From the NCBI GenBank assembly GCA_021234155.1, contig JAJEKV010000001.1, forward strand, positions 23,919,189-23,983,188: 64,000 nt of DNA, given 5' to 3'. The first letter of the stretch is position 1. Every line of letters starts with the position of its first letter. Both the position numbers and the translations under genes were made by a program. The stretch comes from Isoetes taiwanensis (taxonomy: Eukaryota; Streptophyta; Lycopodiopsida; Isoetales; Isoetaceae). Positions 2,550 to 55,914 of the stretch are shown here, in pieces. The notes below the pieces were generated by a model that was given only the letters and a program-made list of their open reading frames with translations, did not search any database and had not been told where the DNA came from.

Positions 2550-2557
2550 TATATAAA
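2550..2557 (+). promoter_or_regulatory. Possible TATA box of the ABCB gene
   Basis: A perfect TATATAAA lies 42 bp upstream of the ABCB start codon used here (2599). If functional it would give a leader of only about 15 bases, so either the leader is very short or the real promoter lies further upstream in the duplicated region. Call rests on motif and position only. Confidence 0.35.
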
Positions 2558-2598
2558 GGACAGGCGTATGCAGAGCATGGCATAGTCATATATTGATC

Positions 2599-16775: not shown

Positions 16776-16919
16776 GGGGCCGAAAATTTTTTTTAGTATA
16801 ATAACCAACATATAACTACTATTAACATTAATAAACATAACCATTGGATCCACCACATTTAAATTAAAATCCCATAAACCCCTTTGGTTTGGGTGCACAT
16901 TCTACGGGGGTGACTCAGG
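16776..16919 (+). mobile_element. One arm of a long-TIR foldback element (family shared with 46.8 and 49.8 kb)
   Basis: Matches the left arm of the complete element at 49836-50346: the GGGGCC edge, an A/T run, the CAACATA..ACTACTAT segment, the TAAACCCC..GGTTTGGGTGCA segment and the GGGGGTGACTC inner part. The opposite arm is absent. The sequence runs straight into the truncated copy of the Ulp1-like block at 16951, so the second arm was probably lost together with that junction. Confidence 0.7.
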
Positions 16920-16950
16920 ACATCGAGGAACATTGGGGGTGATGGCGGGT

Positions 16951-19000: not shown

Positions 19001-19561
19001 GTCTTGGCTTACGGAGCACACTTTTACGTTTGTAAATTGCATATTATGTTTCTATAGTTTTTGGATATCCAATAACACTTTTTTGTGATACGTATTGCAT
19101 ATTATCTTTGTATGGTTTGGTATGCTATCTATAAATAAAATTAAGAGTAGAATAGACCCTTCAGAGTTTAGATGCTGGCGAATGAATGCAAAATAGTTGA
19201 AACGGATTGATATCCCACTAAGTGTCATGATCAAACATCCCAAAATTTCCTTGAAACACTATTCATTTTGACCATGAAAAGAAATACTATTCATTTGGTT
19301 AGGAAAAGAACATTGTTCACCAAAACCATTAGAAATTAGTCATGATTTTGAATACTAAATTACACTTGCTTTACATTTTAAAAGGTTAAGGTTAAATTGC
19401 AAAGTTTGAGCTTGGGGGACACAACTCGTCTTTAAAGGAAAAACACATGAAAACATGAAATAAGTTAAATCTTGGAATAAAATTTCCATTATCATAAAAT
19501 GACTCTTAAAACTAAAACCCAACAGGGTATCACATTTCAAAGCGAAAAAAAAAATTATCAA

Positions 19562-26296: not shown

Positions 26297-26446
26297 AAAA
26301 CATATTAACACAGTATCATATACCAACTTCCAAACACAATAGAGACCGAAGTATGAACTATATATGATAGATAGCAAAGGTTACTAGAGACCACGGTAGT
26401 ATGTCCCTAGTAACCTTCCCCTGGCTAGTAACCTTCCCCTATGTTC

Positions 26447-26989
26447 CTAACCCCTTCCCCTTCCCCTTCCCCTGCGAGGTCTAACCCACACAGCTGGATT
26501 AGGAACCCAGAGCTCACGCATATCCCAACCTGATTCTTCCCACCATATGGGGTACCTAGTCATTGCAAAAAGTAATTCCACATGATGATACTCATGGAAG
26601 AAGAGCAGACCCAACTCCATAAAGTTGTTGTACTCATGGTAGTATGTCCTAATAAGGCCATATGTCTGTCCCTTACAAATTTCATGAATGACCTCTGGTA
26701 TGTATTGAACTAAAGAGTGTGCTAAATAACCAGCACAAAAAAGAGGCCTCAACTGCTGTAGCATCTCGTCCATATGAGGAGGGGGTTCAAGAATTCCCAC
26801 TAATGCAAGTCTCCTATAGCATTCAGATGGATTAATTTCCATCAGTGGCTCATGACCACAATCAAATTGCTCAGTCTGAGGTTGATCAACTCCCTTGCAA
26901 GCTCCTTGGTGGGGCCTGTGGCGCCAACCTCCACTCCAAGAAATGGTCAAATAACTCATCTTGATCGGGCCACGAAGAATGCAGGGCAT
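26447..26989 (-). CDS. Unrecognised ORF family, copy 1 (180 aa)
   Basis: An open - strand frame of 180 codons. Its first 70 residues include WSGGW, ACKGVDQ and EINPSECYRRLAL. The middle part (about 95-165) is rich in Tyr, His and Leu (TYGLIRTYYHEYNNF, LLFAMTRYPIWWEES). It ends in an Arg/Gly repeat (RPRRGRGRGRG) encoded by a CCCCTT microsatellite. I recognise no domain. The protein is clearly related to copy 2 (33237-33764) and more distantly to copy 3 (34551-35244), and DNA similarity to copy 2 covers about 26290-26990. This copy has the cleanest frame. The start codon is uncertain, because copy 2 continues upstream while similarity here stops at this ATG. Confidence 0.55.
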   Translation of the reverse strand: MPCILRGPIKMSYLTISWSGGWRHRPHQGACKGVDQPQTEQFDCGHEPLMEINPSECYRRLALVGILEPPPHMDEMLQQLRPLFCAGYLAHSLVQYIPEVIHEICKGQTYGLIRTYYHEYNNFMELGLLFFHEYHHVELLFAMTRYPIWWEESGWDMRELWVPNPAVWVRPRRGRGRGRG

Positions 26990-27100
26990 GCTTCACAAGG
27001 CCCCAAAAAATGAACTTGTATAAAAATTAGCATGAAAACCAGTATATATGTGATTTTTTTATACGACAATGTAAAGAAAAATCATGTGTTCTTCCTAGTT

Positions 27101-29062: not shown

Positions 29063-29990
29063 CCAACAAACTAATGTGCTTTTTTCTATTGTGTCTATAT
29101 TCTTTTTTCTTTTAATAATAACCTATTTTAGGGGTATGGTCTATGGTCTCAAGGCAAGTGATTTATTCATCTATATTGAATCCCCTTGGAACCTTTTGTT
29201 ATTGTGCTACATATTCATATGGCAACCAGATTAGTTTTTTTGTCTTCAGCAACCAAGCATCTGAAGCCAAACTAGCAAATGTGTCTAACTCATCTAACTT
29301 TTATGAAAATTTGTGACTAAATTTAATGTTTTTGTTAATTCCTTATCAATGCCTCAAGTTCTTCCCATGATCATAAAACTCCAAAAATTATGATGGAGTG
29401 CAAAATAAAACTCTTAATCTTTGCTACAACAATTTGTCTTAAAATGCCTCAAATCTTCTTGATATGTTATTGTGTATGTAGCTGGAGCGCTGAGGTGGCA
29501 AGTTGCATTAGAGTTTTTTTGAGGTCAAATAAGGGCCTCCTAAGAATATATTAGGGGGGCCGCCACGTAGGATGCCGAACCTAGCTTCCCCCCTCCATAC
29601 CTAAATTTCACTCTCCCCTAACCTAACTACCTAACCTCCCAGAACCTAACCCCGAACCTAACCCCTTAATCATTATTTCCTAAAATATTTGATGATTATT
29701 TTCGTTTTCCCACCTTCGAGCTTATGCCATCGAGCTTCAGCACCATCGATTGAGCTTGCCCTCGGCGCCATCGACCTTGCCATCGCGCCATCGGCATGCG
29801 ATCTTGCCATCGGGCCCGGGCGATTTTGAATTCCGAATTATGGCGGTTCTTGCCGACAAATGAAGCGAAATTTTCAATTTAAGCTCGTTTGTTAACAGAA
29901 TCTTCCTAATCTAATCTCCTTCAGGTTCTCGGTCTTTGCAGCGTCAATGGCAAAGGTATTTGGTTTAAATTAGTCATTGCATTCCTTTGA
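29063..29990. other. Gene-free DNA with short CCTAAC and GCCATCG repeats
   Basis: At 29600-29665 there are repeated CCTAAC/AACCCC phrases. At about 29722-29815 the phrase GCCATCG with AGCTT or ACCTT recurs at least six times, a degenerate short tandem repeat. No open frame of note. It immediately precedes the coding-like block starting near 29990. Confidence 0.5.
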
Positions 29991-32560
29991 GTGTTCTTCC
30001 TTCTAATACTTACGTTTTGGGATCAAACTAATTCCGAGGGTCAATTTAGAGTGCAAGTGCCAAAAGAATGCACGCCTTTACGGAATAAGTTCACTTGGAA
30101 GCAACCAATAGATGAAGATGCATTCTTGACTTACGGAGCCATGAATATAGACCTCTGGGCTAAAGGCCAACTGTATCCATGTGATCCTTTCACTCGAGCC
30201 CATCAAACTTCCACTCTGCATCGGTCTTATTGAATTTGCTTGTAAGGGACAGCAAGGGTTACTAGGTTTCTTGTAATAATTTGGTTAATGGTATCTTGAT
30301 CCACATTTGCGTTATGTATAACCACTTGTATGGATTCAATTGCAAAGTTTTATCGGATGTTAATCGGCTCCAACAGGCCGAACTACTTTTACTGTCTCAA
30401 CAATGCCTAAGCTCAATGAATTGGAGGTAGAAAATCAGAAATTAGTAGTTGAGATGAATGCCTTTGCAGCAAAAGGAATGAAGAGGGTTGCGCAAAAGAA
30501 AATGATTCCCTTCACAAGCGGGTCAAGCGGCTTAAAAAGAACTCCACTGGGGATCGGGGAGAGGGCAAAAACACAAAGCCCATAAATATATTAGCCCACA
30601 GGGGTGGAGGCTCAAAAAAGGGTCATGGCTATTAAAAAACGCTTGTTGATCCAAATCTTGCGAGAAAAGAAAATAAGAAAAACACGCTAATATTGCGGTT
30701 TATTAAAGAAATTAGTTACTAAAGATGATGTATTGAGAATGTTAAAGCTTCACGGTAGCATTCAACTTAGGAAAGGCTGTAGTACATCAATCTGATTGCG
30801 GGGAGTTGGGGAACAGTCAAACCTCGAGAATCGATTAAGAAGCGTGTGACAATGTCGGAATAAGTAGGCAAGCTTATATTGCTTTGTTCGGATGCTTGCG
30901 GGATGGCTTTAAACAACAAGGCATTACCAAAACTATTCTACTACCAAGGATGACTAAGCGTGATGACTTGTAGGTCATCGAAAAACGAGACAAGTGCAAG
31001 AGCTTCTTGGTGATATGTATCGGTGACCCAGCGGTGTCAACTTGGATACATTGGCATCCTATACCAAAGGTAAGAAGAAGTCGAAGTTTGGTGATACTTT
31101 TACTACGCCTTAATGAAAATAACAATTCTTTGGATAGACTTAACTAGAATGCTTCAGACTTTTGGTTCGATTTTATGATATGAAGGTAGAAGAGTCTTGT
31201 TGGCAAACTAAGAATTGTTTTGAAGCTGGATGAAATGGAATTGGTGAAAGGCGAGAAATGCGAGAGGGTTTTAGTTGAGTCTAATGAACGAGCTTTGAAT
31301 ACGAGGGAATGAAGAGTCAAATCTAGATGATAAGTTTTCCGATCCGGTCGAAGATCACATTTGGTGGGTTGGTTTTATTTCAGGTACCGGAGGAAAATCA
31401 CGGTATCTTGAAATGGGTTTTGATCAAACACCCATTCCCACAATGATTGCCTCTCCGCGGAATCGGGAGAAAAACTTGCAGTTCACGGATATGGTGAGTA
31501 CGAGGTTGAATGGCATCTTCTTTGCAGATTTGAAGACAATAAAATGCATGTACGAGAATGAAGCATGGTGCTGGTAAGACTACTCATGCTTGTCCCTCTT
31601 GTCTCTATGCAAGAAGAGATTCAATTTGGATTGGACAAGAGTACATTAGAAGCCGTGTCGGGATGAGCCACCAAATAGAGAGGAGAAGGACACAACCTTG
31701 ATGCCAATTACGCCAATTCCATTAAGAAGAGTACACATATGCACCCTTCATGCTTTCTTGAGAATCATAGACAAGATGGTTTACATGAGTATCTGTTTGC
31801 TTGGAATAAATCACCCCAAAGCTCTAGGAAGCTGCCATGCATGAAGTTGAAAAGGTGCTATCTAATGTGGGACTTCATGGTGGGCACTACAAAATACTTC
31901 AAGATCCAAAGGTATCCCAAGCAAGGTTCCCAAAAACCCGGTATGGGTGGTCCAAAGGCTAAGAGGTTTTGCCTCCTTGAAAGAACTTATCGGTGTTTGG
32001 GAAGCTTACAAGGATCTTATTGCAAAATGAGGATGATCGAAATGATAAGTGGCGGAATCACGCTGAAAAAAAATCAAGGCATGGCGGGATTTCTCTGTCT
32101 TGGTAAAGGAAATGCAAAAAAAAGGTAGTGCGAGGAAAATGATGTTGCCAAATTCCGGGGAGGCGGTCACAAACTTCACTAAGTCTTTCCCGGCGGCATG
32201 GGGTGAGGCCAATTTGACTCACTATGTCCATATCTGTTAAGCATGGCGTGTGGTTTGTCGGGGAGTATGGAAGCACAGGAATTTGGAATACCAGGGAATG
32301 GAGAAGTCCCATAAGCAAGCAAAGAATGCATTCTTCCGTTTCACTCAACCTGGAGGTTGGTTAGGGAATTCCTTGCAGCAGATGTGTCAATGGTTTCTGA
32401 AGGGATGCGTGTGCAAGTGGGTGAAGAAATCACGGAACCGAGTGAATCAACACTTGCTAAGTTGTTTAGACAAAAACCCCGGCCCGGGAAAAAAGAGGGC
32501 AGCTTGGTATAAGTCCGCGGTTGTTGGCGATCAAGGAGTGGAGATCAATGAGATGTAGGC
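29991..32560 (+). pseudogene. Unrecognised coding-like block, fragmented
   Basis: A series of + strand open pieces (29991-30233, 30403-30585, 31739-32128, 32250-32558) separated by frame changes. The region has protein-like composition. The last part reads FPAAWGEANLTHYVH in one frame, then GVWFVGEYGSTGIWNTQGMEKSHKQ after frame adjustments, then an Arg/Lys-rich tail. The QGMEKSHK stretch recalls the end of some large DNA-transposon transposases, but I cannot name a family. It may be the enzyme gene of an element whose other parts lie to the right. Confidence 0.4.
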
Positions 32561-32699
32561 AAGGCAAAGGTTATGTCCGTGTATTGAGAGCTCTGATAAC
32601 GCGTCTCTTTGTAAAAGAGTTGGTTTATTTATCGGTTCGATAGTGCTCGGTGTGCGCGAAATCTTGTGTTGTAAGTAAATTGGATGCATGTATTGCGCC

Positions 32700-33010
32700 A
32701 TTACGGTCTGAATATGGGCTGTAACTAAAGCGGATCCGCGTTTTTACGCGCACCGTAGCCCGCGATGCGAAATAGGCCCTTCAATAATTTATGGCGGGTG
32801 CGATTTACGCACCGTGGCTACTGATCTTAATAGGCCCTTGAATAATTTGTGGCGAGTCGATTTACGCCGCGTAGCCCGCGGTCTGCGAAATAGGCCCCTT
32901 CAATAATTTGTAACTTCGGTGATTTCGCACCGGGCTGCGGTCGCGAAAATAAAACCCTTCAATAATTTGTACACGAGTCAATTTAGACGCGTGGCTCACG
33001 GTCGCGAAAA
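32700..33010. repeat. Palindromic repeat cluster P1
   Basis: Four to five tandem units of about 57-60 bp. Each has a half-site related to TTTCGCACCGTGG, its inverted partner with CGCGGTxxGCGAAATA, and a linker ending CCTTCAATAATTTGT. Units here are degraded. The linker phrase TTCAATAATTT is shared with cluster P2. Confidence 0.8.
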
Positions 33011-33236
33011 TATGGGCCCAATAACTAGAGAATATTAACATATTAGAGAACATATTAACATATTAGAGAATATTTATAGAACATATTATCACGGTATCAT
33101 ATGAAATATTTATGATAGATAGCAAAGGTTACTAGAGACCACGGCAGTATGTCCCTAGTAACGTTCCCCTAGGTTCCTAACCCCTTCCCCTTCCCCTTCC
33201 CCTGCGAGGTGTAACCCATGCATCACGGGTTAGGAA

Positions 33237-33764
33237 TCAAACTCTCACGCTCATCCCGGCTGATTCTTCCCACCATATGGGGTACCTAGTCATTAGAAAA
33301 AGTAATTCCAGAGGATGATACTCACGGAAGAAGAGCGGACCCAACTCCACAAAACCGTTGTACTCATTGTAGTACACCCTAATAAGGCCATACATCTGTC
33401 CCTTAGAAATTTCATGAATGAACTCTGATATGTATGCATCCAGAGAGTGTGCTAAATATCCGGCCACGAAGAAGAGGCCTCAATTCTTTGTAGCATCTCG
33501 GTCCGGATAAGGGGGTTCAAGCATTCCCCTCATTGCAAGTCTCCTATAACATTCGGATGGATTAATTTCCATCGGTGGCTCATGACCACAATCAAATCGC
33601 TCAGAATGAAGTTGATCAACTCCATTGTAAGCTCCTTGGTGGGGCCCGTGGGGCCAACCTCCACTCCAAGAAATGGTCCCATAGCTCATCCATTCCAGGC
33701 GCCTGAGAATGCAGGGCATGCTTGCCATCCCTTCCACGGAGTAGCCAGGGAGGATTGGGTCCAA
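33237..33764 (-). pseudogene. Unrecognised ORF family, copy 2 (frameshifted)
   Basis: Two - strand pieces, 33764-33480 (94 codons, N-terminal half with WSGGW, GVDQLHS, INPSECYRRLA) and 33467-33237 (76 codons, C-terminal half with YGLIRVYYNEYNGF and RYPIWWEES), are separated by a frameshift near 33475. They match copy 1 closely in protein and DNA, and the CCCCTT microsatellite follows at 33186-33202. N-terminal sequence extends further than in copy 1 (MDPILPGYS). Differences from copy 1 include CAG to CGG changes at several sites. Confidence 0.6.
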
Positions 33765-33769
33765 TCATT

Positions 33770-34210
33770 TGCACAAGCAAGCAAGGAACAAGGAGCGAGC
33801 AAGGAACAAGGCAAGGAGCAAGAAGCAAGGAAGAGGACCAAGTAGCAAGGAACAAGGATCAAGATCAAGTAGGAAGAAGCAAGGAACAAGGAAGATCAAG
33901 GAGCAAGAAGATCAAGGAACAAGGAAGACCAAATAGCAAGAACCGGGGTAGATGAAGTAGCAAGGAACAAGGAAGATCATGGAACAAAGGGAAGCAAGGA
34001 ACAAGATCAAGTAGCAAGATCGAGAGCAAGGAACAAGACCAAGTAGCATGAAGTAGCACGAAGATGAAGGAGCAAGAAGCAAGGATCAAGATCAATTAGC
34101 AAAGAACACGGAACACAAGGTGAGAAGTGAAAGCAAAGTGAGAACCACGAGAAGTGAAAGCAATGTGAAAACATGGAACAAAGGTGAGAAGTGAAAGCAA
34201 GGTGAAAGAA
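33770..34210. repeat. Purine-rich minisatellite (AAGGAACAAGGA type)
   Basis: About 440 bp of irregular repeats built from GCAAGGAACAAGG, AGATCAAG and AAGTAGCAAGA phrases. It sits upstream (5' side) of copy 2 of the unrecognised ORF family. The ORFs it creates on both strands are low-complexity artefacts (KEQGASKEQG on +, CSLLLAPCS on -). Confidence 0.85.
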
Positions 34211-34309
34211 TTTATAGCTCTGACTCAATAATGTTGAAGTATAATACTAATACTGTTGAAGTATAATACCACAGTAGCCAGGAATACTGTTGAAGTACTA
34301 ATACTGTAG

Positions 34310-34375
34310 CCACGGTGCGAAATAGGACCTTCAATAATTTTTAAGTGAGGCGATTTAATATTTTAAGCCCGCAGG
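34310..34375. repeat. Palindromic repeat cluster P2 (single unit)
   Basis: GTAGCCACGGTGCGAAATAG followed by CCTTCAATAATTT and a partial second half-site. Same unit as P1. Confidence 0.7.
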
Positions 34376-34550
34376 TCCCAATATGACTACAAATAAAACA
34401 TTCACACGAGAAAATACAAGGAAAATGGTAGAAGAAAACCATTCAATTACACTAAAAGTGTAAGATTGCCAACATAATACATGATAATATGAGGGATTTA
34501 CTTAATTACCAGGAAATCACTTGCTTATATCTTAATTTCTATGAAAATCT

Positions 34551-35244
34551 TTATACCAGTCCGATTGGAGTATCTTCACACGTGATATGCGATATTATGT
34601 CTTTGTGTGCTATGTAGCCATAGGTCACGCGTGTATCCCAAGGAATTGTATCCCAGGTGGGGAATCTAGACAGTAACCACAGGATGTTGAAGTCAAGGGA
34701 ACGGAATAGGAGCTTACCAATATCCACAAAAGATTTGTAATGGAAGTCGTAAAGTTCAATGAGGATATAAATCCTATTCTTCTCATTAGTAGGAATGACC
34801 GGAGGCACATCTTGATCAGTAGGCCATGAAACCATGGAAAAGCATGTCCTTCAAGCATTCTAGCCTATCTTCTAAATGCGAGGGGGTTCAAGAAGTCCCC
34901 AAAGCACTTAGAGTGAACCTTGCTTCACTCGAATTGATCTCCTCGGTGGAGGGAGATGGCGAGTATAGCGATCGATAACGAAGTTGATCAACTGCCTTGC
35001 AAGCTCTGTGGTTGGACCGCGTGGCCCATCGATGCTCCCAAAAGTTGTTAAAAAAAAAATCAAAGTGCACGTTATCTCTACCTTGCGGCTTGCGGTATTC
35101 CGGATCAACCCGGCGAGGATGTTCTTGCAAAGTTACCATTTGCAAAGAAACTAGTGGAAGCGACGAACGGGCAAAGAGCAACAAGAAGCGGACCGAGGGA
35201 GGCAAGGAGCATGCAAACAAGAAGCGGAGACAAAGACAAGGCAT
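34551..35244 (-). pseudogene. Unrecognised ORF family, copy 3 (diverged)
   Basis: Two - strand pieces, 35244-34888 and 34835-34551. The first ends with ACKAVDQLRYRS and EINSSEARFTLSALG, aligning with ACKGVDQ and EINPSECYRRLAL of copy 1. The second has YILIELYDFHYKSF, GKLLFRSL and SRFPTWD, aligning with YGLIRTYYHEYNNF, GLLFFHEY and TRYPIWW. The spacing of the conserved residues is kept although identity is low, so this is a real ancient paralogue. It lacks the Arg/Gly tail. Purine-rich sequence like that of copy 2 lies upstream (35150-35245). Confidence 0.5.
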
Positions 35245-35344
35245 AGATGCCTATTTAAAGAGAAATCAGGTATATATGCTATATACGTTACATTATATTT
35301 ACATATTGTAGCTCACGTGGTATCACGAGTACCATACAAGTATG

Positions 35345-35455
35345 TATATGATAATAATTTTGGTATGTATATACCATCAATAATTTCTATGTATATACCG
35401 TCAATAATTTTACGGGTATATACCATCAATAATTTTGGTGGGTATAAATATACAT
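35345..35455. repeat. Short tandem repeat, unit about 29 bp
   Basis: Four units of the type GTATATACCATCAATAATTT. No coding role; the short ORFs across it repeat the same peptide. Confidence 0.8.
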
Positions 35456-36354
35456 CAAATTGCCGAGTCGCGACAATATTGGCCTCCGATCTAGCCATGT
35501 GGTCTCATTACGGTCCTGAGCGTGATTCCATTACACGCAAGATGAATCCGCGAAAATTTCAGCGATTAATCGCGGCGAAAATACCCATGGAAGGCGGATG
35601 ACCACTGCCGTTCTCAATCCCACTATTATCATCGATCCCTTCGATGTTATCATCCATCTAATATGGAATAGAGAGCATCAAATGTACATGATAGAAAAGA
35701 TCACTGGGGTGCCTGGTGACAATGACTCAGAAGAGTCCCCCTAACTCAATACTCAGAATGTATATACGCTATATACGTACATTATATACATGTGTATTTT
35801 GTACATTATGCTGCATTATGTATAACCAATAATGCTTGCTTTCTGATGCATGTCAATAATTTTGTTCGATATAAGTAGGGTTCCACTCAATGCAGAAGGC
35901 GTCCATTTGCTATGTCTCGGCCTCCTCGTCCCGAAGATATGGACTCCATTACTTGCACTATGACATATAATGATATTCATAGATGTTCTCAGAGGGGTAT
36001 CCCCCTTGATCCCTGGCTGGAAGGAGTAGCGGAGGGCGAAATCGTTCTTCCTAGAGGGTTTTATCGTGTTATTATCCACCTTTGGAGGGTTCGGGCGTGA
36101 AGCGTCTATGAGATTAATCGCATCACTCAACTACCTTTTCATGATGATCCCGATCGCTGAATAAGCTTCTTCATTCATGTATGCTATGCCTCTTATATGA
36201 GTTCTATGTACATGCTATGCCTCTTATATGAGTTATAAGTATGTAACCATAAGTGATACATGTGATCCGTCTATTTACCGCACATTTTCAATTTGGAAAG
36301 CTCTTGGCCATTTTCCTTACGTGTAGATTCTAAATTCAGTTCAGCATTCTCTTC
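35456..36354. other. Stretch with weak coding signal on the + strand
   Basis: Two small + strand frames (35317-35601 end part and 35912-36100) have some protein-like character, for example DMDSITCTMTYNDIH and WLEGVAEGEI, but no domain I know. The remainder is AT-rich with a repeated ATGCCTCTTATATGAGTT phrase at about 36185 and 36215. Confidence 0.3.
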
Positions 36355-36575
36355 ACAATGTGTGGAATAGTGCATTTCGCACAGTAGTCGCGGTCTTGAA
36401 ATTGCGCCCCCTCAAAACTTTGGAACCACTATTTTCGCGCAGGTGGCCGCGATGCGAAATAGACTTTCCCAAAGAATGTGGAATAGTCATTTTCGCACCG
36501 TGGCCACGGTGCGAAATAGACCTTCCCACAGAATATGGAATAGTCATTTTCGCACCGTGGCCACGGTCAACACTA
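36355..36575. repeat. Palindromic repeat cluster P3, with a perfect 26-bp palindrome
   Basis: Three to four units of about 63 bp. The best one, 36491-36516, is a perfect palindrome made of TTTCGCACCGTGG and its exact inverted copy. Units are joined by a linker with AGACCTTCCCACAGAATATG. This cluster lies about 130-345 bp 3' of the histone-like ORF. Perfect dyad symmetry in tandem is typical of protein-binding repeats near transposon ends or of replication origins; which applies here is unknown. Confidence 0.85.
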
Positions 36576-36699
36576 GTAGATAAATGCACAGCCGCAATAA
36601 ATAGAATTGCAAATAATTACAGATAAATATAAAACACTCATGACGATAAATACTAAAACACTCATATATTAAGAAACAAAAAAGTGTTACAAAAGGATG

Positions 36700-37179
36700 C
36701 TAAGGGAGGCATCCACGGAAGTATCTAGCTAAAGCATAATCGTTGGCCTGCACAGTAACACGTCCTCTGTGCACACAACAGCGGACACTGTCCTCAAAGA
36801 GGCTAATTAGATGAGCCTCTGCTGCCTCTTGCAGTATGTCCAAGGCCTCTGCCTGGATTCTATTCACCTCCTCCTCCACCATCGGGACGAAGTCTGGTGC
36901 TCTGTCCCTCCTCTTGCTTCTTGCTTCCTTCCTCCTCTCAATAATTTCCTGCATCTCAAACCTGACCATTCTAGCGAAGGCAAGCTTGGGAATCAGAGGC
37001 TGGGTGCGTGCCTGCCAGTACCTGATCTCCCTCAAAGCCTGAGTGCCAGGAGGAGCACCCTTCATCTTCTCAGGGCCACCATATCTAACACTAGGCTCCC
37101 CTTCCTTAGGCTTCCGCTTATTACCAAGCTTATCAGTCTCCTTGCCTGCATCTCTCTCGGCTTGTCTCAGTAGGAACAA
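36700..37179 (-). CDS. Divergent histone H3-fold protein, CENH3-like
   Basis: An open frame of 159 residues whose second half follows histone H3. PGTQALREIR (44-53) matches the H3 alpha-N start PGT.ALREIR. QPLIPKLAFARMVRFEM (60-76) matches alpha 1. AEALDILQEAAEAHLISLFED (110-130) matches alpha 2, and RVTVQANDYALARYFRG (140-156) matches alpha 3. The LIP and AEAL residues are closer to plant CENH3 than to canonical H3. Loop 1 carries about 20 extra residues, mostly charged (RRKEARSKRRDR, then VEEEV), far longer than in CENH3. The canonical ARTKQ tail is absent. The upstream overlapping frame 37597-37133 adds a Lys/Pro-rich tail-like segment (SPGRKAEIQPKKPSQEKPP), so an upstream exon or a frameshift is possible. 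H3-type histones wrap DNA with H4, and CENH3 marks centromeres. Whether this one is expressed is unknown. Confidence 0.75.
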   Translation of the reverse strand: MFLLRQAERDAGKETDKLGNKRKPKEGEPSVRYGGPEKMKGAPPGTQALREIRYWQARTQPLIPKLAFARMVRFEMQEIIERRKEARSKRRDRAPDFVPMVEEEVNRIQAEALDILQEAAEAHLISLFEDSVRCCVHRGRVTVQANDYALARYFRGCLP

Positions 37180-37597
37180 GCCTAGGAGGCTTTTCTTGGC
37201 TCGGTTTCTTCGGCTGGATTTCAGCTTTTCGCCCGGGGCTTCCTAGAACCTTTTTCCACTTTCGAACTAGGGTTCCGGGATCAACATCTTTGGTCCACCG
37301 ATGATCTTCTTTGGGCGGCTGATCCGGCTGATTTTCTTTGGACCGGTGATCGCGATCTTCTTTGGCCCGTCGATCCTGGCGATCATCTTTGGACCAGGTG
37401 ATCGCGGGGTCATCTTTGCACTTCCATAGTCCGCGGTTCTTCCTCCCCCACCAGCGCCAAACGTTTGGGAATGCAATAGTGGTCCCAACGTCCGAGACGA
37501 GGAGATAGCCCGATTCATGAGCCACTTTGGCACCATGGCCCTGGTCAACCCGGCCAAAGCACTGGCGTGTGTGTAGACCCCCTCGGCGTGGTTTCAA
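37180..37597 (-). other. Possible N-terminal tail-coding extension of the histone-like gene
   Basis: A frame of 154 codons ending at 37133 overlaps the start of the histone-like ORF in a different frame. Its last third is basic and Pro-rich like a histone tail. Its first part has runs such as KDDRQDRRAKEDRDHRSKEN that come from a GATC-rich repetitive stretch (37280-37420). A splice junction or one frameshift near 37150 would join the two. I cannot decide which. Confidence 0.3.
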
Positions 37598-38194
37598 CCG
37601 TAATCCAGCTCATTACACAAGAACTGGAATGGCCGTGACTCCGTGCGGACATGGATGACATCAACCCGGCCACACGACGCATGACCCGGCGGCTTCCTCC
37701 AATGTCTCCGCTCTGGGGTGGGGAAGCGGCGGTGGCCGCATTGGATCAGAGCTGTGTCCACTTTGCTACCACAATCTGATCATCACAACTGGAATATTGT
37801 GGCGCATTCGTCCGCGGAAAACTCCTTCCCCAACAACCTTACCGGTAGCTCAACCAAGGGTGACCCGACTAGGAAGCGGTCGGGTTTTGAATATTCGCCC
37901 ACACTATTACTAATAGTGTGGGCGACATTTCCAAGGGTTTGCCCGGTCTTACTGTAAGGACAACCTCCTCTACGCCCATCTGGCGGGCTTGTGATGGGAA
38001 TAAGCGCCTCGCCCTCGTGATTGGAATAGAAGTCTCTGGCCGCTAGTAATGACCTCATCAACATTCAAGCGGCCGGTCAAGCGCCTCATTTTGTGGGATT
38101 TGGAGCTAGCGCCTTCCATGGACATGGCGGATTTTAGCAAGGAGAAGAAATTCAATTAAGCAATATTGTCTGTCCGATCCCATAAACCCCTACA

Positions 38195-38560
38195 AAAAAT
38201 GTTACGTAGCCACTCGCGGTCGAGGCAAATTCAAAATCGCCGACATCTTTGTTTTCGACCGTAGCCCGGCATGCGAAAATAGGGCAGTCCAAAATGCCGG
38301 CAGACTGTTTTTCGCGACCGTAATACGGTTGAAATCGTCGCCCTAAACCGACATCCTCTTTTCGCCACCGGCCACCGGTCGCGAAATAAGGCAGTCCAAA
38401 AGCTGCCAGAGCAACTGTTTTCGCCGCACCGTAGCCCGCGGTCGCGAAATAGGGTAGTCCAAAATTGCCGACCTTTGTTTTCGCCTTTGTAGCCCGCGGT
38501 CGCGAAAATCGCCCAGACCAAAAACTGCTGACATCCTGTTTTCGCACTGTAGCCACCATT
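38195..38560. repeat. Palindromic repeat cluster P4
   Basis: Six units of about 62 bp with GCACCGTAGCCCGCGGTCGCGAAA-type dyads and a linker of the form AGGGCAGTCCAAAA. It lies about 0.6 kb upstream of the histone-like ORF region, on the opposite side from P3. The two - strand ORFs crossing it (38152-38619 and 38231-38521) only translate the repeat (FGLPYFATAG and similar). Confidence 0.85.
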
Positions 38561-39899
38561 AAAGTATACCTAACATATACATCTAACAAGGATTTATTGC
38601 TCACATTGAAGTCTAACAATTAATGAATATCATAAATGAACATTCATACAAAAACAATTTCGTCATATGAAAACAATTGATACATTATAGAAAAGACAAT
38701 TTATAGAAAAGACATTATATTCATACATAAGTTTTTAAGTACATTTCCTTTTCTTGGCATCGGGAATTTGTAGTACCCGAATCAAAATCTTCTAAGTCCT
38801 CTTCTTTTACTCCAGCCCCAATTGCATCTAACGGATACAATATGTCGGGGGTCCTTCACGCAGGACAAGCTAGCGGTGTTTCCTTGTCCGCTCCACCCAA
38901 GCCTAGAGTGCTTTATTTGCAAGGACAGAGTACATTTTGAAGCCCCCGAAGACATACATTCGCGATAGCCCTATCTCTTACTACCACTCGATCATAGTTT
39001 GAGGCTAGGGGCGCGTGGTTTGCCGACTAATAGAGCCTTAAGCTTGAGGACCTCCTGGTACTCCAGGATGGACTATATTTATTGTGAAACACAATAATTT
39101 CCCCTTGTGAAGGTAGCCCATATAATGTGCACATAAGGTCCCTACCTAGGGTGACTCTCGATGCCTTGCCGTAAGTCATCAATAAATAACTCCCCGCATA
39201 AAAGAAACATCGATTCAAGAAGAAATAGAAAATGAAACCGATAAATACCTCTCTTTTGTCCCGCTCGACAATTTGGGTTTGTTATTTTGAAAGCGGACTT
39301 CGACGACTCCGTTCTATGAATTGAGCGGTGTTTGAAGAGCTAGCGACTTCAAATTTGACATCTTTCACCGCTTCATACCACCTTCCAGCTTTTGCTGCAT
39401 GACAATTTCAAATGCATCCTCTGCGGAGGTATTGAGGATCCATCATAAGTCACGACCTCCATCATTTGTCCGGGGACATCGGTCTCAAAGTCTATAAGTC
39501 CTCCCGGGCCTACAACATGGGCATATATCCGCCCAATATCTGCGTCTTCTCTCAACCCTGTCCACTTCAGATATGTCCGTGACAACAAGTATGGTTTCCC
39601 ACCTACATGGATGGGATATGCTTCGATAGCCCCCAAGTAGATAACTTTTTCTCGGAGACCTCCTGTTCCACAACCTCGATCTCCTCATTTTCCAAAGACG
39701 AGCTTCTCTTCCTCGGGATCTATCGGCTCCTCTCTTGCGGTGAGGCGGGCGTTTGTTTCACGACTGTGCACTTGAAGAAGAACGGCATCTTTGCTTGGCT
39801 TAGTGTAAATCATGTATGTCTTTGAACATGATATCTAGGCGAAAAAACTTTCCTTCCCCTCTTGCTCGCGATTAAGCGGTAGTTTCTTCAAGAACCTTC

Positions 39900-40208
39900 T
39901 TATTCGGTCATGATCGGGTTTGAAAACATCTTAAGAAAAGCTTGGATGCTTAGTGAAGGCAAACCCAGTCCACGGGGACATGGTTTCACGTCGGGACCAG
40001 CTCCAGCCATGAAGCTATGAAGGATGCCGCCCGTATGCATCGATAAACTGTTACACTCGCCATAATGTCTACGCTTTCGGGCAAAATTATTATACCACGG
40101 TGGTTGCATCCACTTTGGCTCCTCTAACTCCTCCTCGAACTCTTCGGGATGTTTTCGATTTAAAATCCGTTCTTTCTCCACTATTTTGTCATACCATGTG
40201 CTAAACAA
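39900..40208 (-). pseudogene. Possible plant En/Spm TNP1-like transposase fragment
   Basis: A 102-codon frame with EEFEEELEEPKWMQPPWY, an Arg/Lys stretch, SLSMHTGG and a following GLPSLSIQAFLKMF. TNP1-type proteins of CACTA elements carry a HTGGS motif followed by a Pro-Ser and FLK-like motif at similar spacing. The match rests on a few residues and is tentative. Confidence 0.3.
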
Positions 40209-40299
40209 ACTTCCATGCCTTATCTGACCCGCTATTTGCCATTCTCGTGGAGCGGCCTCGATTTATGACACTTAGAATGTGAGCCTTTGTAGCGGCTTG

Positions 40300-40690
40300 A
40301 TTTGCAATAGAGACTAAGAACGCGGCAACGATCGCGAAAATAACACTTCCTTAATTTATGCTATGCACAAATTACGCCTTGCACCGCGGGCTACGGTCGC
40401 GAAAACAAGACTTCGATAAGTTATTCTATTCACAATTTGTATAACCGTGGCTACGGTCTTGAAAATACCATTCCATTTTTATTACGTTGCACATTTTTCA
40501 AGCATCGTTTCGCTGCGGTCGCGGCAAAGTTCTTCAATATCTTATTGTATGTATAACCGCAAGCAACAATCACTCGGTTAATATACCCTTTTTTTTTATG
40601 CTATGCACATTTTTCGCCGCCACCTTGGCTTAAAAAATAACTTCCATATTTTTTATGAGAGCCACAATTTAGAGACACCGTAAACGTGCG
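40300..40690. repeat. Palindromic repeat cluster P5 (degraded)
   Basis: Five to six loose units with GGCTACGGTCGCGAAAA or related half-sites and a linker with TTTATGCTATGCACAA. Same family as P1-P4, with a different linker. Confidence 0.7.
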
Positions 40691-42449
40691 GTTTTGAAAA
40701 CACATCCACAATCGAGTTGTACATAACATGGCTACTTTAAGTCTTATATCCCAATGAAAGCAAATGTTTGCAATTAATATACAATAGATCTACGCTAACA
40801 ATCACTTATATTTATATTAGATAGATTCATATCTGAGATATGACTTTGGGGCATGCATGACCCCAATTTATAGCATTCTTCTGCAAAGCTTTCCCACCTA
40901 CCTCGCCATCTATCATGAAATGGAAGAAGTTTAAGTCTTCGTCTCAAACTCCAATTATGGAAACAAATTGGCCAACATCTAATAGAGACCACTTTCATCT
41001 CGCTCTCGGACTTTTTGAACAGTGATTATCCTTATGAATGTTCAAGTCTATGACAACGAATGAGTGCCATCATTGTCATCTTGTTCGACGGGGAATCGAG
41101 GCGTACTTTCTTCCTTCACGGACATTCGCCATCTCCTATACTTAAAAGTGACATACGAGTTTGCTTAGAATGCAATATCTGAACCGAACCGTGTCTCGAC
41201 TTATCCCGCATTCAAGACATTCAGCTCCATCGTGAAGTCGAGCACTCCAACCTTCAAGAAATACACTATCTAAAAAACAATCCGACCGTTGAATCAGAAA
41301 CATCTTCAAGGTCTTCTTTACATTGTCGGTAGCTCTTGAATATGGCAATGAACGGATCAATTCCTAAATTTATCTTCACATGCCCGAGACTCCTCCCTTC
41401 TCCTTCAATGCCGCGAACATTTCCTGCGACAACTTACTCCGTGCTAATAAGATAGAAGTGGCATCCGGGCTGCAAGATAAATCCGGACGGTAGCCGGGCA
41501 ATGGAAGCTCGGTTAGCTTGGATCTTCGTGGAGAGTATTCATACCTCGGAACCATATACCCTTTCTCTTGGTGTGTGCTACCTTGCTACCTTCAACAACA
41601 AGCGGCCCATATCTTGGTGAAAGCAATGGAAAACACCGCTTATCGAGTGTGAAGAGACAGTGTTCTCCACATCGATATACACAAACCTGAGAGAATGGGA
41701 AGGAACTGGATAAAATGGCGAACTAATTTGAATATGGATTGCATAGAATTACATACTCACAATTTGCTTCTAACCGGGGAAAGTTAGGTAAATATTGCTT
41801 ATTTTTCTTTTGCCATATCCCGCATTTGGAGTGTATACATGCCTTACTTGTACAAATATCTCTTTGCCCGATCGAAATCGACCACCAAAAGCCTTCCAAT
41901 GTGCGAAACATCATTTCTCCCCGCATCTTTTGACTCGCCATTCACCTCGCATGCGGGTTGGAGTGTAACAAAGCTCCTGGCCGACACCACACGAAGCTTT
42001 CAAACTCATTCCGACCGTGATAGAGCTTATAGCCATCTAGTCCGCGAAATTCAAATCGTAATGTGGAGCGAATCGAAATACTAGGAAAGGCTACGAACCA
42101 TTTTACCTTGATCGGGTTTTTACGTGGTCGAAACTCCCTTTAGCGCCATTCGGCATTGCGGTTCAAAGTGAACCCAAGCTCCCTTGGCGGGCAATCGATC
42201 TTCGCGCAAAAACTCTGTTGTGAAAAACACTGGGACCGGGAATTGAGGGCGGGAGCTAACGGTTATAATTGCCACGTGTGTAATCTGACACCCGAAGCTA
42301 GAGGCACGGACATTACCGAAGCTACGTGCAGTTGACACCTGGAAACGCGAAACCAAGGCTCGGTGAAAAAGTTCTGTACAAGCTCGGCTCCCCATTGGCC
42401 GCGAGCTTTTTGACGTGGCATCGAGTAAGGGCCCTTATTTGATCTCAAA

Positions 42450-45400
42450 AAAACTCTAATGGTTCAAATATGAAGAAGGTTCTTCAAGTCAATTTGGCCA
42501 GTTCAAAACCATAGGTTTAGAACCGGGTTTAGAACAAGTACAATTTCACCCAAAGAAATAGATTGTTGCAGCTAAATACATAGAAAGAAGAGTCGAATTC
42601 ATTCCGATGAAAGTAATTTAAGAATGAATTTCACCTAATCTCCAGATATTGAGGACTCGATGTTTGCCACGATAAAATTTTGTAAAAATAATCTTATTTT
42701 GTGAGAAGTAAATGTAAGCTTCACAATGCAAGTAAACCTTGGAAGGGCTATGCAGTCCACTCCAGCTTACCAAGGATGAGTTAGTTACAATACAAATCAT
42801 TTGGTCTCCATAGTAAGTGATCATATATATACCAAAAACCTGTTGTTGAAAAAATCACATAACAGGAAGAATGCACTTCACTTCCACCCTTAACATGACC
42901 CTAAAGATCATTGTCCACATTCTAAGCATAAGCATCTCTCATTGAAAGACTATAATGGCATATTGGTTGTTAATATATGACACTTCCATTTGCTATCATA
43001 GATTCAATACAAATCAGTACCCTTTCACTTCAAAAATAAAGCTCTTGATCCAAGTTGAGAAGAAAAGGCAATCATTTACATCCAACATGTAATATTGCTA
43101 TCCATTGTGGGGACTCTTTGTACTTTATATCCTTATTAATCAAAAAATACACTCTTAAAAAGATTTAAAAAAAAAGAAAAAAGAAAAATTCTAATATTTT
43201 ACATGAAAAATGCTCAGTCGCTTAGGTGGATTTGAGGTGCACAACAAGATTTCATCGTAAAGAAAATGCACATGTTTATTGAAGGCCGTGAAGTAGAGTC
43301 CTTAAGGAAAATTGTTCCATACTTGCATAAAACAATTACATTTCTAGAAAACTTGGAACAATCCAAAATTCTATGTGGGGTATCTTTTCATGCTAACATT
43401 TATTTCCCATTGATCTTTTGAATCTTGAGATTATCTTCGTTTGTTATCTTAGGAAAAAGGACAAATAATCCATAGAACAGTAGAATTCATTTCAATTCAT
43501 ACTATAACTTTAGCCAAGTTGCTTATGTGCCTACTTGCACAAGGGCATTATTTGGATTAAAAATTCTTATGCGGAGCGGACTCACTTTGCAGTATTCGTG
43601 TTGCTATAAGTAATGTTCTAGTATTTGGTTTTTAAGAAAAGACAAGGCAAGTTGAATAACTTTAGGGGCTACTTGCATTACTTGCATCCAAAGTTCCTAG
43701 GATTCATCGAAACAATATAAATAATGAAAAGGACAGCACGATATCCCCTGTTGGTTGCACCTAACCAACTAGTACATGTGATGAAAATGCCTTCAGTAGG
43801 GGCACTGGCATCTTACATTCATGGGGTACTAGACATGCAGGGCCAATTGTGCCCTTGATCACTACACTGACATGTATAAATGTATAATTCATTGGCAAGC
43901 TTATCACTACGAAAGTATTCTCATCGAAAACCCTTCGGGGCAAGGGTTTTTAAATCCCCAACTTTAATGGTCGATTGTTCTTTGTTTGTTTACTTGTGCC
44001 CATAGGCCTTTTGTTCTTCGTGTAGCCAATCCAATCCAATTCCTTCTTATATCATCTCCTTATTCAAGCAACTTGGTCTATTCTATGAGTTAAATTGCAT
44101 TGGTTTTATTTATGATGAAAACTTGAATGGTTGAGTTATTCAACTTATTTTTTCTCAAAGATGTAGTAACAAAACGCTAATGAATGCCTATTATGGCAAC
44201 ATAAATATCGCAAAACTACTCTGCAAAAATGCTGGAAGAGATTCCATATATTTTCTCTTTTGAGAAACACAAGATGTATCATAAAAAGATGGTGGGGAGG
44301 ATCCTATCTTTACAAAAAGTCCACATGAACATAAACAAAAGTCGCTTTCTAGCAAAACGATTCGGTTGCTTTCATTGACTTACCAGGATTTGGATTTGTG
44401 TCGTCAGAAGTGGCTAAATTGTAGTTGAGAAAGGAAATTGCTATGAACATCAATTGCTTGACAACATGTGTTTAATGCTCGGTAAAAACTCGAATATAAC
44501 CATTGATATGATCTCTTTTTTGCCGTACAACAATGCAACAATACGCATAGTATCCAATTTTTTGAAAAGGATTGGTGGTCCAAACGATGTGATATCACAT
44601 CTCATAATATAATATAATATATATGTATATGATTGCCGTCGGATTTGGTGGCATACTGGCCACCCATCTCGTCTGTCATGCCACCGGATCTTGGCCAATC
44701 ATCAGTGCCCAGGCAATCTCGTCCGTAGAATCTGGTGATTTACTGATGGTCCATCTCGTTTGCCCATCCATTGACTTCTTAGGAATCCTCAATTATGTAT
44801 AAAATTTCTTAAATTTATGTATTGAAGGAAATTGGATCTGTGCCCTCATACCCTGTAAGGAAGATCTGGAGGAAAACCCCTTAACCAGCTCTCTAGACTT
44901 CTATATTTGATAATTTTTTTATTTTTCTTGCAGACTTGCCTTTCCTATTCGTTGTTAGATTGAAAAATTATAAAATTTTCAAAATTTACCTTCTTGATGG
45001 CCGATCTCAGTTCCGAATTATTTAATTTTATACTAAAGAAGTGTCTTAAATGGTGTTTGATTTTGTCAGAAGCCTAAGCCACTAAAGTTTTACCCTTTCA
45101 TATTTCCTTATCTAGTGTTTTCTTCCTCTATAGCGAACTCTTGTTCTTCAAAATATCAAGAATACTACTCTTGGAAAATCTATTTTATAGGAAAGGTAAG
45201 TAGCTCTTTCAAGTGTGGCGTATTACATGAAATTGAATTTTGGAACGGCATAGTCTTTATCATGTAGCATGACGTAAAAATACTATCTATCTGTCGAGCA
45301 TGCAAATGAAGTGACGCACAAAGTGCTTTTGTTTTCAATTTGAATACTACCTTTCATATCTCGTTATAGTTGTATGCAACTAAAGGTAACACTAAGATGA

Positions 45401-52654: not shown

Positions 52655-55317
52655 ATGGCCCCTGGTAAATTCCTTCCCCAATGAAAGCCCTCAGTGAAAA
52701 TCTCGGGATCTGCTTGCATGTATGCACAATAATAATTTATTGTTGTCATGTTTGAGCCAAGCAAGTCTGTTTGTCACTCTGTATAATATTTTATTGCTGT
52801 CATATTTGAGCCAAGAAAGCTCTGTTTGGCACTTTGTCATGCTTGTCTTTATTTTTTATTTTCTATTTATGTTTATGATTTTGTCTTGGCTTTGCAGGAA
52901 GAACTCGAAAAAGAACTCAGAAGCTGCTCTCCCACAGATCTGACAGCAGTGAGGCACCACTCGAGCCCAAAAGGCCTTCTCAAATTGACCCCAAATTTTT
53001 GCTCAGGCAAGAACTTTGGTCAGTTAGTACTGTAGAATGGCTCGAGCAATTAGTTAATAGTGAGGCAGCACCATCAGTTCAGAGTGAGGCAGCACCAGAG
53101 GCAGCATTGTCAGACAAACATAGCAGCACAGGATCAATATCTTATTCAATGGCTGAAATTGATGGAAGTGAGGGAGCTTGCAGTAGAAATATTCAGCCGG
53201 TTGATGAAGTGGCCAATGTGGTAGCTAGCATAGCACAGGATTTTCTGATGCAAGAGAATGAGGCAATCGAGCATGAGCAGCCAATTGGGCATGAGGAAAA
53301 GGTTAAAGAGGATGATGATCGGGTACATGAAATGGAGATTGATGATGATGGAGAAGATATTAGCATGGAGCAGCCCAAGTGGACCTACAATTATCAAACC
53401 AAGAGGTACTTATGTCTGGCAAAGCCTTGCAATTACATTAATGGAGGAAGGACTGTTTATTGAAACACATGAACAAGCTTCATGGTTTCAAAGGGAATAT
53501 TGAGGGTTCTAAGAGAGACAGGCCGTGCAAGAATGCAGATGGCCCTTTGCGGCCGGTAGAACTTCTGAAATGTACTATGCAAGGAATACGTTGAATCCGG
53601 AGTGGAGGTATGCCAATGATCTAAAAAGATACCTAAATTCTTGCACCAAACATGCCAATGCCACATTTCTGGACCTTTGTGGAACTAGTGAGTTTAGGGA
53701 GGAAGAGAAAGAAAAATTTGTAGCAGACTTTGTGGAATCAAGAAGCCTGGCATGGGAGTCCAAAAGGGAGGCCAAAATTGCAGGTTACAAGGCAAACATT
53801 GCTAGGGGATGGCATTATGAGGAGGCTGTTGAAGGTTTTTCTGATGAAGTGGAGGCAAAGAATGATTGGGAGAAGGAGGAGAGCAGCCTCAATGACACTC
53901 TCCTGGCATGTGGCAGATTTGAGGAAATTGAAGCCATGGAGGTTGAGAACTGTACTCCACCTCGACCAAGGCAAGAACCAGCTTCTAATATTGATTCCTC
54001 CAAGATTGTGACAATAGATGAGATACCTGAACTGCAGAGGACTTTAGCAGATAGCAGCAATACTATGTCCTTACTCTCTTATCATTGCCTTTGGATTGGG
54101 TACTGGAGAGGTCGTTCTTTAACCTACTTGATCAATGGTATAATATGAGGAGCTCCAAGAAGAAGAAATCTATGATTGCATGTAATATAATTGCAGGTGG
54201 CCTTTATATCTTCGGAGTCCCTTGTGGAAGCAAGGGTCTTCTCCTTATGGTGAATTTCACCTTAATCGAGAAAATGTGTTGGCATTTGAAACTTTGGCAT
54301 CAGATGACCCGATGCATGCCTCGAAATCATGGGTGGGTGATGAGGCCATCGGTTGCTATCTCATGTGCGTGGTCTAGCTAGTTTGGAAAGGTTTTTTTCT
54401 TGCTCATCTCTGTTCTAACTTATTGCTGCTGCAGGAACTATTCCATGTACAAGGAGATCCCATCACTGCTGGTTTAATCCCGCTATCTTGGGGCTGCTCG
54501 TAAGTGGTTCCACCTCCTGGTTGAAGTTGCTGCCCCCTAGACCTCCTGGTAGGGTTAAGGATTCTGGAAAGATTGACTCAATCTTGTACTACTAGCTTTC
54601 AGCCAACACGAGGTAGTATTAGTCAAGTTTTCCTGTCAATTTGCATTTTTTTTTTTTGGTCATTTTAGTTGCTGCAGACTAATTGGTTTCCTATGCAGTG
54701 GTCATTGGAGTTTATTTGTTTTAGTAACTGACCAACAAACATGCACTGCATTTGAGCAACCGACACCAGTGATTCTGCACTTTGACAGCTTGAAAAGGAT
54801 TCATAGCACGTTGTCATGTCAATTAAAAATGTAAGTAAATTACCTTATTTTTTCCAGATGTTCCATTACCATTGTCTGCTCGTTTTCTGCCACTTATTCT
54901 TATGCCAGTTTACTACGGGATCTTTTTTCATGAATGCCCCTGTGCACTCAGTTGATTGCCCTACTCAATCAAACGAATCTGATTGTGGAGTCTGGACCGT
55001 CTTGTTTGCAAAACAGTTATGGATTTTGTCTTCAAGAGAGCTTCCAATGATTTGGTTAAGGTAACACTATATGCTGCCGACCTAATGTTTACCATTGGTT
55101 TAGATTGCCTTCTTTTTTATATCCTGCCATGTTACAGGTTGACAGGACTTGGATTTCAGAGACTGATCTGAAACAATGCCGCAAGACCTTTGGAACTCTT
55201 CTAGCAAAACTCCATGAACTTGTCATATCTGGTAAAAAAAACTTGCCTTTACCTGAGTCCTCGCCTGCGGAAGATATAGGGACTAGAGCTGCTGTGGCAA
55301 AGAGGAGACCTGACTAA
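52655..55317 (+). pseudogene. Ulp1/C48 SUMO-protease-like gene, nearly complete but frameshifted
   Basis: Cysteine-protease domain of the Ulp1 (C48) family, which cleaves SUMO or related conjugates. Related domains are also carried by some plant transposons. Proposed exons: 52655-52664 (MAPG), 52898-54137, 54197-54368, 54435-54499, 54699-54830, about 54912-55060, 55138-55317. Most junctions are GT-AG and phase-consistent. Exon 2 begins RTRKRTQ and contains an acidic stretch and a part with CRWPFAAG that I do not recognise. The protease domain has SWVGDEAIGCYL, GHWSLFVLV (catalytic His), ILHFDSLK (Asp) and QSNESDCGVW (Cys). At least four frameshifts are needed, near 53450, 54065, 54930 and 55005. 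It is either a recent pseudogene or contains sequence errors. The first intron holds two minisatellite-core units (52744 and 52797). Confidence 0.75.
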
Positions 55318-55914
55318 GCACTCAAAAACTTTGAAGTTCAATTTTATTGGCATTTTGTTGGCATGATGTACTGGCACGGAGCACACTTTTCTGTTTGTAA
55401 ATTGCATATTATGTTTCTATAGTTTTTGGTTATCAGGAATAACACTTTTGTATTCTGTATTGCATATTATCTTTGTATGGTTTGGTATGCTATCTATAAA
55501 TAAAAAATTAGAGTAGAATAGACCCTTCAGGATTTAGATGCTGGCGAATGAATGCGAAAATAGTTGAAACGGATTGATATCCCACTAAGTGTCATGAATC
55601 AAACATCCCAAAATTTCCTTGAAACACTATTCATTTGACCATGAAAGAAATACTATTCATTTAGTTAGGAAAAGAACATTGTTCACCAAACCATTAGAAA
55701 TTGAGTCATGATTTTGAATACTAAATTACACTTGCTTTACATTTTAAAGGTTAAGGTTAAATTGCAAAGTTTGACTCGTCTTTAAAGGAAAAACACATGA
55801 AAACATGAAATAAGTTAAATCTTGGAATAAAATTCCCATTATCATAAAATGACTCTTAAAACTAAAAACCCAACAGGGTGTCACATTTCAAACGAAATTA
55901 AAAAAATTATCAAG

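Follow-up and report, generated by a model that had tools for sequence, protein, structure and literature searches.

A divergent histone H3-type gene carried by a multi-copy, multi-gene DNA transposon of Isoetes taiwanensis

What is a strongly diverged, H3-like reading frame doing in the repeat-rich DNA of a lycopod, and does it belong to the plant or to a mobile element? The question is raised by a minus-strand frame without stops at 36700–37242 (180 codons from stop to stop) in a 64,000-nucleotide stretch of the Isoetes taiwanensis genome (contig JAJEKV010000001.1, positions 23,919,189 to 23,983,188; hereafter the window, in whose numbering bare coordinates are given). A first-pass annotation had read here a divergent, CENH3-like protein, and had proposed that it was an H3 or CENH3 paralogue on a mobile element, a neo-functionalised host variant or a lineage-specific centromere histone. 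The 159-residue reading of this frame begins at TTG, and the sole in-frame Met ahead of alpha-N is that of EKMKG, so that the true N-terminus lies outside the 36700–37242 frame. The conserved H3-like coding stretch comprises 155 codons and a stop (36700..37167, minus strand), with the fold itself running from about 37053 down to 36700.

The product of this frame is a histone H3-type protein. It matches the Pfam profile Histone (PF00125) with an E value of 1.1e-18 and 68.1 bits (curated cut-off 26.4), and in a sequence search of the PDB the best 60 of 174 matches are H3 chains or the CENP-A entry cnp1, with E values from 4e-18. An AlphaFold model, built from 19 sequences and of moderate confidence (mean pLDDT 66, pTM 0.45), places helices at residues 46–58, 68–93, 101–137 and 145–155, which is the H3 order of alpha-N, alpha-1, alpha-2 and alpha-3. 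Searching with this model in Foldseek gives nucleosome or histone octamer entries as the best 50 of 673 matches (best E 2.6e-5), and because the TM-scores are low (0.26–0.51 among the 50 matches listed) the assignment of the histone fold rests mainly on sequence. The histone fold that had been claimed for this frame is borne out by profile search, PDB chains, predicted structure and Foldseek.

Compared with a canonical H3 of the same genome (L096), to which it is 52% identical (48 of 93 aligned residues), the protein is enlarged, counting 116 residues from PG onward where the canonical protein has 93, in good agreement with the roughly 20 extra loop 1 residues reported earlier. The approximately 23 additional residues fall between alpha-1 and alpha-2 and mostly form an extension of alpha-1 in the model; they are encoded by purine-rich DNA at approximately 36874..36942 (minus strand), as placed by alignment with the canonical H3 and the relatives and by the model helix 68–93. 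A retained intron was considered as the origin of this insert and set aside, as no plausible splice pair, judged by eye, keeps both alpha-1 and alpha-2 whole.

The gene lies within a multi-copy mobile element. Alignment of the window to a same-orientation copy at a distance of 5.4 Mb on this contig (C907:29391502-29404495) yields a single alignment of 89.5% identity over 29506–42469, whose right end falls no more than 8 bases from the right terminal repeat, and the whole DNA transposon is delimited at 29506..42461, a length of 12,956 bp (12.96 kb). Its left terminal inverted repeat has 32 bp, CATTAGAGTTTTTTTGAGGTCAAATAAGGGCC (29506..29537, plus strand), and the right one agrees with it at 31 of 32 positions (42430..42461, minus strand). 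At up to 2 mismatches the terminal repeat is matched 379 times in the genome (183 forward, 196 reverse), against 0 matches for a reversed control. For the best 100 of these 379 termini, a histone match lies inward at 20 kb or less in 41 cases and outward in 1, and the remaining 59 of the 100 termini listed have no scored histone match inward over that distance.

A search of the Isoetes taiwanensis genome with the histone itself gave 150 scored matches out of 5,703 first-look candidates, at 140 or more loci over 2 kb apart and on many contigs, which excludes a single isolated locus. Twenty of the 24 best matches beyond the window were taken with 10 kb flanks (those on C132, C1059, C37 and C1043 were left out and later added in short form), and all 20 have aligned pieces of more than 1.4 kb in common with the window. 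The proposal of a paralogue on a mobile element thus stands as to the mobile element, through its copies, its ends and the 379 termini; nothing was found that favours a neo-functionalised host variant or a lineage-specific centromere histone.

The element ends in 5'-CA..TG-3', as CATTAGAG..CTCTAATG, in both the window and the C907 copy; ten further end pairs were picked by the terminal sequence itself, so that CA..TG is not independent there. In these 12 end pairs, six of which are spaced 12–15 kb and some of which may join the ends of different elements, a target-site duplication of 3–12 bp was found in 0/12 and a 2-bp agreement in 1/12. For the DNA just outside the element (42500–44500), near-complete copies are confined to the neighbourhood on this contig, other matches being short and 71–84% identical. 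These nearby copies, at C907:23911497 and C907:23990868, are near-identical (98–99%) and represent a local duplication around the insertion. Elsewhere in the genome, C919:21762523-21766973 holds two element termini just 4.45 kb apart, possibly a non-autonomous deletion form, and C1049:11717764-11734140 holds a local array of three partial element histones in 16.4 kb, two of them stop-free (138-codon frames), where use by the host might be sought.

Beyond the element, the window contains an ABCB-type ABC transporter gene of several exons (2557–7186) that adjoins a duplication (1–800 versus 1416–2200), and two diverged copies of another repeat (16900–19560 and 53300–55870), each with a large 22-bp minisatellite TGTCATGTTTGAGCCAA after it (approximately 19562–21538 and 55914–57770). 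Single window ORFs match DDE_1 (E 2e-6), Y_phosphatase2 (4e-12) and Chromo (1e-7), and these lie outside the element since they are not among its 68 ORFs.

What kind of transposon this is can be judged from a plus-strand gene at 29990..32560, where ORFs of other copies map and which is broken in the window. It encodes a transposase with a coiled coil followed by a DDE domain of RAG1/Transib type. Its 30 homologues, out of 6,418 candidates and with E values as low as 7e-125, are all unnamed or "hypothetical" and carry no precomputed Pfam domain. The modelled fold of one relative, P0138 (32 sequences, pLDDT 74), has six PDB matches below E 0.001, of which five are RAG-complex chains (4e-10 to 2e-8) and one is HzTransib (4e-6). 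The motifs KLDE, HLAGDLK, CxxC, HxxxxH and GMERSH follow one another in this order in P0137 and P0138, and ORF pieces of the element in copy L018 bear the same transposase motifs as these two relatives; GMERSH is absent from P0135 and P0139, and P0135 also lacks CxxC as written. Such an order, with CxxC and HxxxxH between the second D and the last E, is given for the CACTA/Mirage/Chapaev/Transib clade in the available portion of the source (PMC12730594). Judged through its relatives, the membership of the element transposase in this CMCT clade (the CACTA/Transib/RAG1 kind) is well supported: a DDE domain with CxxC and H(3-4)H is seen in the relatives and the L018 pieces, and the CA..TG ends are present; the 2–5 bp duplication of the clade was not seen at the end pairs compared, apart from the one 2-bp agreement. 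No hAT domain appeared at E 0.01 in the 68 window ORFs of at least 65 codons inside the element, or in 165 of the 212 such ORFs of 7.2–64 kb, and a hAT-type 8-bp duplication was seen in 0/12 end pairs.

Besides the transposase and the histone, the element carries genes for proteins A to D, all on the minus strand and all marked by open frames of other copies that map there. Protein A (33210..34004) is helical-looking and frame-broken, and protein B (34602..35250) is its distant paralogue (approximately 30%). Protein C (38745..40287), to which ORFs in L024, L025 and L017 map, and protein D (40836..41756), to which ORFs in L012, L016, L017 and L027 map, are both in pieces. Proteins A, C and D have no Pfam match over the cut-off and protein B has none; in the 68 window ORFs inside the element the histone is the sole good Pfam match, next to one weak YARHG (E 0.0014), and in the pieces tested from copies and relatives nothing but histones exceeds the cut-off. 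A relative of gene A is found outside the element at 26352–26993 (70% protein identity to 33258–33722, over 155 residues at 26450–26992); its DNA is 84% identical to gene A of the C907 copy, and another related element may lie there. A viral origin was considered and rejected: IMG/VR matches were obtained with the histone (11, by pattern), with its profile (235) and with protein A (5), none of which was confirmed by tblastn.

The palindromic clusters that had been described on both sides of the histone are present, as the GCACCGTGGCCACGGTGCGAAAT cluster downstream (36354..36568) and a related one upstream (38250..38556). Further related repeats occur as clusters at 32749..33018 and 40321..40500 and singly at 34303..34356, so that the clusters recur about every 2 kb along what is one transposon.

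The histone is longer in other copies than in the window. In L020, L021 and L025 its frame extends upstream to a total of 265–292 residues, adding a Q/D/H-rich stretch and a basic stretch ahead of the fold (the basic part being SSSGTGTRKPIPRRKLKSKPKKSEPAKPPRLVPSW in L021). The tails of L020, L021, L022 and L025 have their counterpart in the window at 37169..37597 (minus strand), spread over frames -1 and -2, and a stop just above 37242 closes the histone frame; with its tail split in this way, the window copy is not intact. The earlier statement that a canonical tail is lacking is accurate for the window copy, but the three other copies examined have a long tail, Q/D/H-rich and basic. A splice acceptor where the conserved stretch begins was also entertained and dropped, given that the open frame of other copies continues upstream. 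With its broken tail frame and its transposase in pieces, the window copy of the element is probably dead.

If single copies decay, has the histone nevertheless been constrained? The 468-base histone stretch is gap-free in 18 of the 20 best copies and in 13 of 40 further ones, which are mostly of lower rank and many of which have stops, and no other run of the element stays nearly indel-free over so great a length in the compared copies, these rows having been chosen by histone similarity. Elsewhere in the element the 20 copies differ from the window by 24–34 indel events per kb, a count that excludes indels peculiar to the window, and by 5–12% of bases, and the contrast between histone and flank is inflated by an unknown amount through the choice of rows, to which nanopore assembly error may add. 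The observation of an open frame amid frame breaks is upheld, with part of the breakage possibly being assembly error.

The sharing of variants over 61 copies is less exposed to this choice of rows, albeit not free from it. Variants present in at least 4 copies comprise 50 synonymous and 45 nonsynonymous changes (per-site ratio 0.25), with 54 of 97 at third positions and 2 stops, against 90 synonymous and 259 nonsynonymous changes (ratio 0.81) and 17 stops for variants present in one to three copies. Within the rare class the trend is not smooth, with 0.69 for singletons and 1.13 for variants in 2–3 copies. The difference between the classes gives a Fisher p of 1.5e-6, and of 1.7e-5 when the 20 best-scoring copies are removed (43/39 common versus 86/236 rare), where the relatedness of the copies makes both p-values smaller than they should be, to an unknown extent, so that they serve as a guide only. 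Read in each of the other five frames, the common class has ratios from 0.40 to 1.50. Pairwise dN/dS among 19 gap-free sequences (two with a stop) is 0.39 overall, with a minimum of 0.26 in alpha-N/alpha-1 and a maximum of 0.70 in the insert. Subject to the biases stated, these values support selection on the histone while the element was mobile, with decay of single copies afterwards. Neutral evolution is not the pattern of the shared variants; many copies do hold stops.

From what kind of H3 the gene descends is less clear-cut. In a tree of 23 rows the seven element histones form one group (100/100) on a long branch (1.36), and together with the RWQA sequences P0001, P0002, P0004 and P0006 they fall outside the 95/99 group of canonical H3; the tree is midpoint-rooted, was built with no plant CENH3, and may be subject to long-branch effects. 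The RWQA sequences among the closest relatives, one of them from the brown alga Pylaiella, are taken by us to be CENH3-like, and without its insert the window histone shows 60% identity to P0001, as against 52% to canonical H3. Like CENH3 and CENP-A, the element histone combines an H3 fold with a divergent tail, an AEAL stretch and a loop 1 longer than that of H3, the surplus here being mostly alpha-1 extension in the model. It differs from them in the size of that surplus, in being transposon-borne at many loci and in the residue that begins alpha-2, where Trp is usual in CENH3 and is found in all four RWQA sequences; the window and 20 copies have Ile instead (RIQAEAL). Both features of the earlier argument that loop 1 and AEAL point to CENH3 are present, and the element histones stand beside the RWQA sequences in the tree, but the Ile and the long branch weaken the argument. 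On balance the comparison leans toward a source of CENH3 type and a protein on the CENH3 side of H3, and CENH3 identity as such is only suggested.

The genome also holds a second, abundant and dispersed family of H3-bearing sequences, separate from the window element. A search with PF00125 scored 150 out of 8,705 candidates, 15 of them near-full-length at 164–165 bits (one of which, L096, is the canonical H3 used above) and 135 at 144–155 bits, on many contigs and with open frames of up to 494 codons. Six examples of the latter (L093–L095 and L097–L099) have near-canonical H3 domains, with LFGDANLC or LFSDANLC in 5 of the 6, and group together in the tree (97/94) on the canonical H3 side. In L093 (C1018:14519710-14520410) and L094 the H3 domain is preceded by a long, coiled-coil-like N-terminal part, and L093 as a query scored 150 of 12,185 candidates, many spanning both parts, at 60–100% identity and with frames of up to 546 codons. 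The main text of the genome paper of Isoetes taiwanensis has no word beginning with "histone" or "centromer" (PMC8566536).

The histone sequence, its place within the element and the number of copies are established, and we consider it probable (roughly 0.6) that this H3 variant gene, part of a multi-gene transposon of about 13 kb, has been kept by selection acting on the transposon. In this account a host H3-type gene would have been taken up long ago, would then have diverged strongly and gained the alpha-1/loop 1 extension and the long tail, and would since have been maintained at the level of the transposon. The likeliest competing account is that an H3 or CENH3 gene was picked up by accident and is useless to the element, with the apparent constraint coming from a host gene or from a few master copies. 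Fungal H3 copies spread by hAT elements have indeed decayed, in the portion of that study available (PMC6710886), and stops are present in many of the Isoetes copies, up to seven in one listed match (C1041:4850297). This account nevertheless seems unlikely to us, as common variants keep their low ratio in a protein only about half identical to canonical H3, from which constraint seems to have acted during the spread, and as the histone is the longest nearly indel-free run, albeit in rows chosen by histone similarity.

Host selection could also enter through a master gene, a true CENH3 or H3 variant that seeds the copies, for instance by conversion. A histone exon far less broken than its flanks and a place in the tree with CENH3-like sequences would suit such a source, but it is a rather improbable one, considering that each of the 20 copies inspected together with its flanks sits in the element and that the window-type sequence departs from canonical H3 at about half of its residues. 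Less probable still is that the protein is a CENH3 derivative which enters centromeric chromatin and lets the element target or spread in centromeres. The AEAL motif, the longer loop 1 and the closeness to the RWQA sequences could be read in this way, as could LIP after the alpha-N helix, which occurs in grass CENH3; the matches lie on many contigs, however, the Trp of RWQ is replaced, and none of the 14 relatives found has so long an insert.

Returning to a histone kept by selection on the transposon, we can offer a tentative account of what it does, in which no centromere function is assumed. The protein would pair with host H4 and take the place of H3 in the nucleosomes of the element or its surroundings, where either the silencing marks that the host places on the H3 tail could not form, or the transposase complex would be brought to the right chromatin. 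More doubtful is the further step that a dedicated and needed H3 variant forms special nucleosomes on the DNA of the transposon, which would either resist silencing by the host or attract the transposition machinery, and that, given the second H3-bearing family, the use of histones by mobile elements could recur in this plant. Transposons are usually regarded as targets of chromatin silencing, and if the account is true, a transposon with its own maintained H3 variant would have a direct effect on chromatin and offer a natural tool for asking about the roles of the H3 tail and of loop 1. Mobile copies of this kind can also inflate the apparent number of H3 or CENH3 genes in such genomes.

Among the papers listed in literature searches on transposon-borne histones, the fungal hAT cases were the only ones found, and none of those papers gave a plant example or an H3 variant that a transposon maintains. 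One of the fungal carriers, a hAT transposon with histone H3, is reportedly found in Pyrenophora tritici-repentis. In Pseudocercospora fijiensis and relatives, as far as the available text of the study goes, a hAT DNA transposon has spread H3 to tens or hundreds of copies, and the P. fijiensis element has a hAT transposase, a length of approximately 9.5 kb, 8-bp duplications and an H3 derived from the ordinary gene of the host, with all copies inactivated (PMC6710886). The likeness is that of a DNA transposon which carries and spreads an H3 coding sequence; the Isoetes gene, in contrast, is far from canonical H3, is enlarged and bears signs of constraint among its copies, and its element has no hAT domain in the ORFs searched.

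Closer in its transposase is a group of fungal CMCT transposons carrying TET/JBP genes (ESTA, EnSpm and Plavaka), which the consulted part of their description gives as having an accessory DNA dioxygenase gene and 2–5 bp duplications (PMC12730594). They share with the Isoetes element the clade motifs, the CA..TG ends and a chromatin-related accessory gene, although that gene is a dioxygenase there and a histone here, and the lack of a duplication of 3 bp or more at the Isoetes end pairs is unusual for the clade. Gene capture by plant DNA transposons is itself familiar from Pack-type elements, which usually have no transposase. Pack-MULE and Pack-CACTA elements contain fragments of many different host genes, some of the captured pieces being under selection, according to the portion of the source available (PMC13317346), whereas in Isoetes it is a single gene, old and diverged, that is found from copy to copy, and the family has a transposase gene as well. 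Capture of H3 by transposons is thus already known from fungal hAT elements, and the Isoetes element is a different variant of it.
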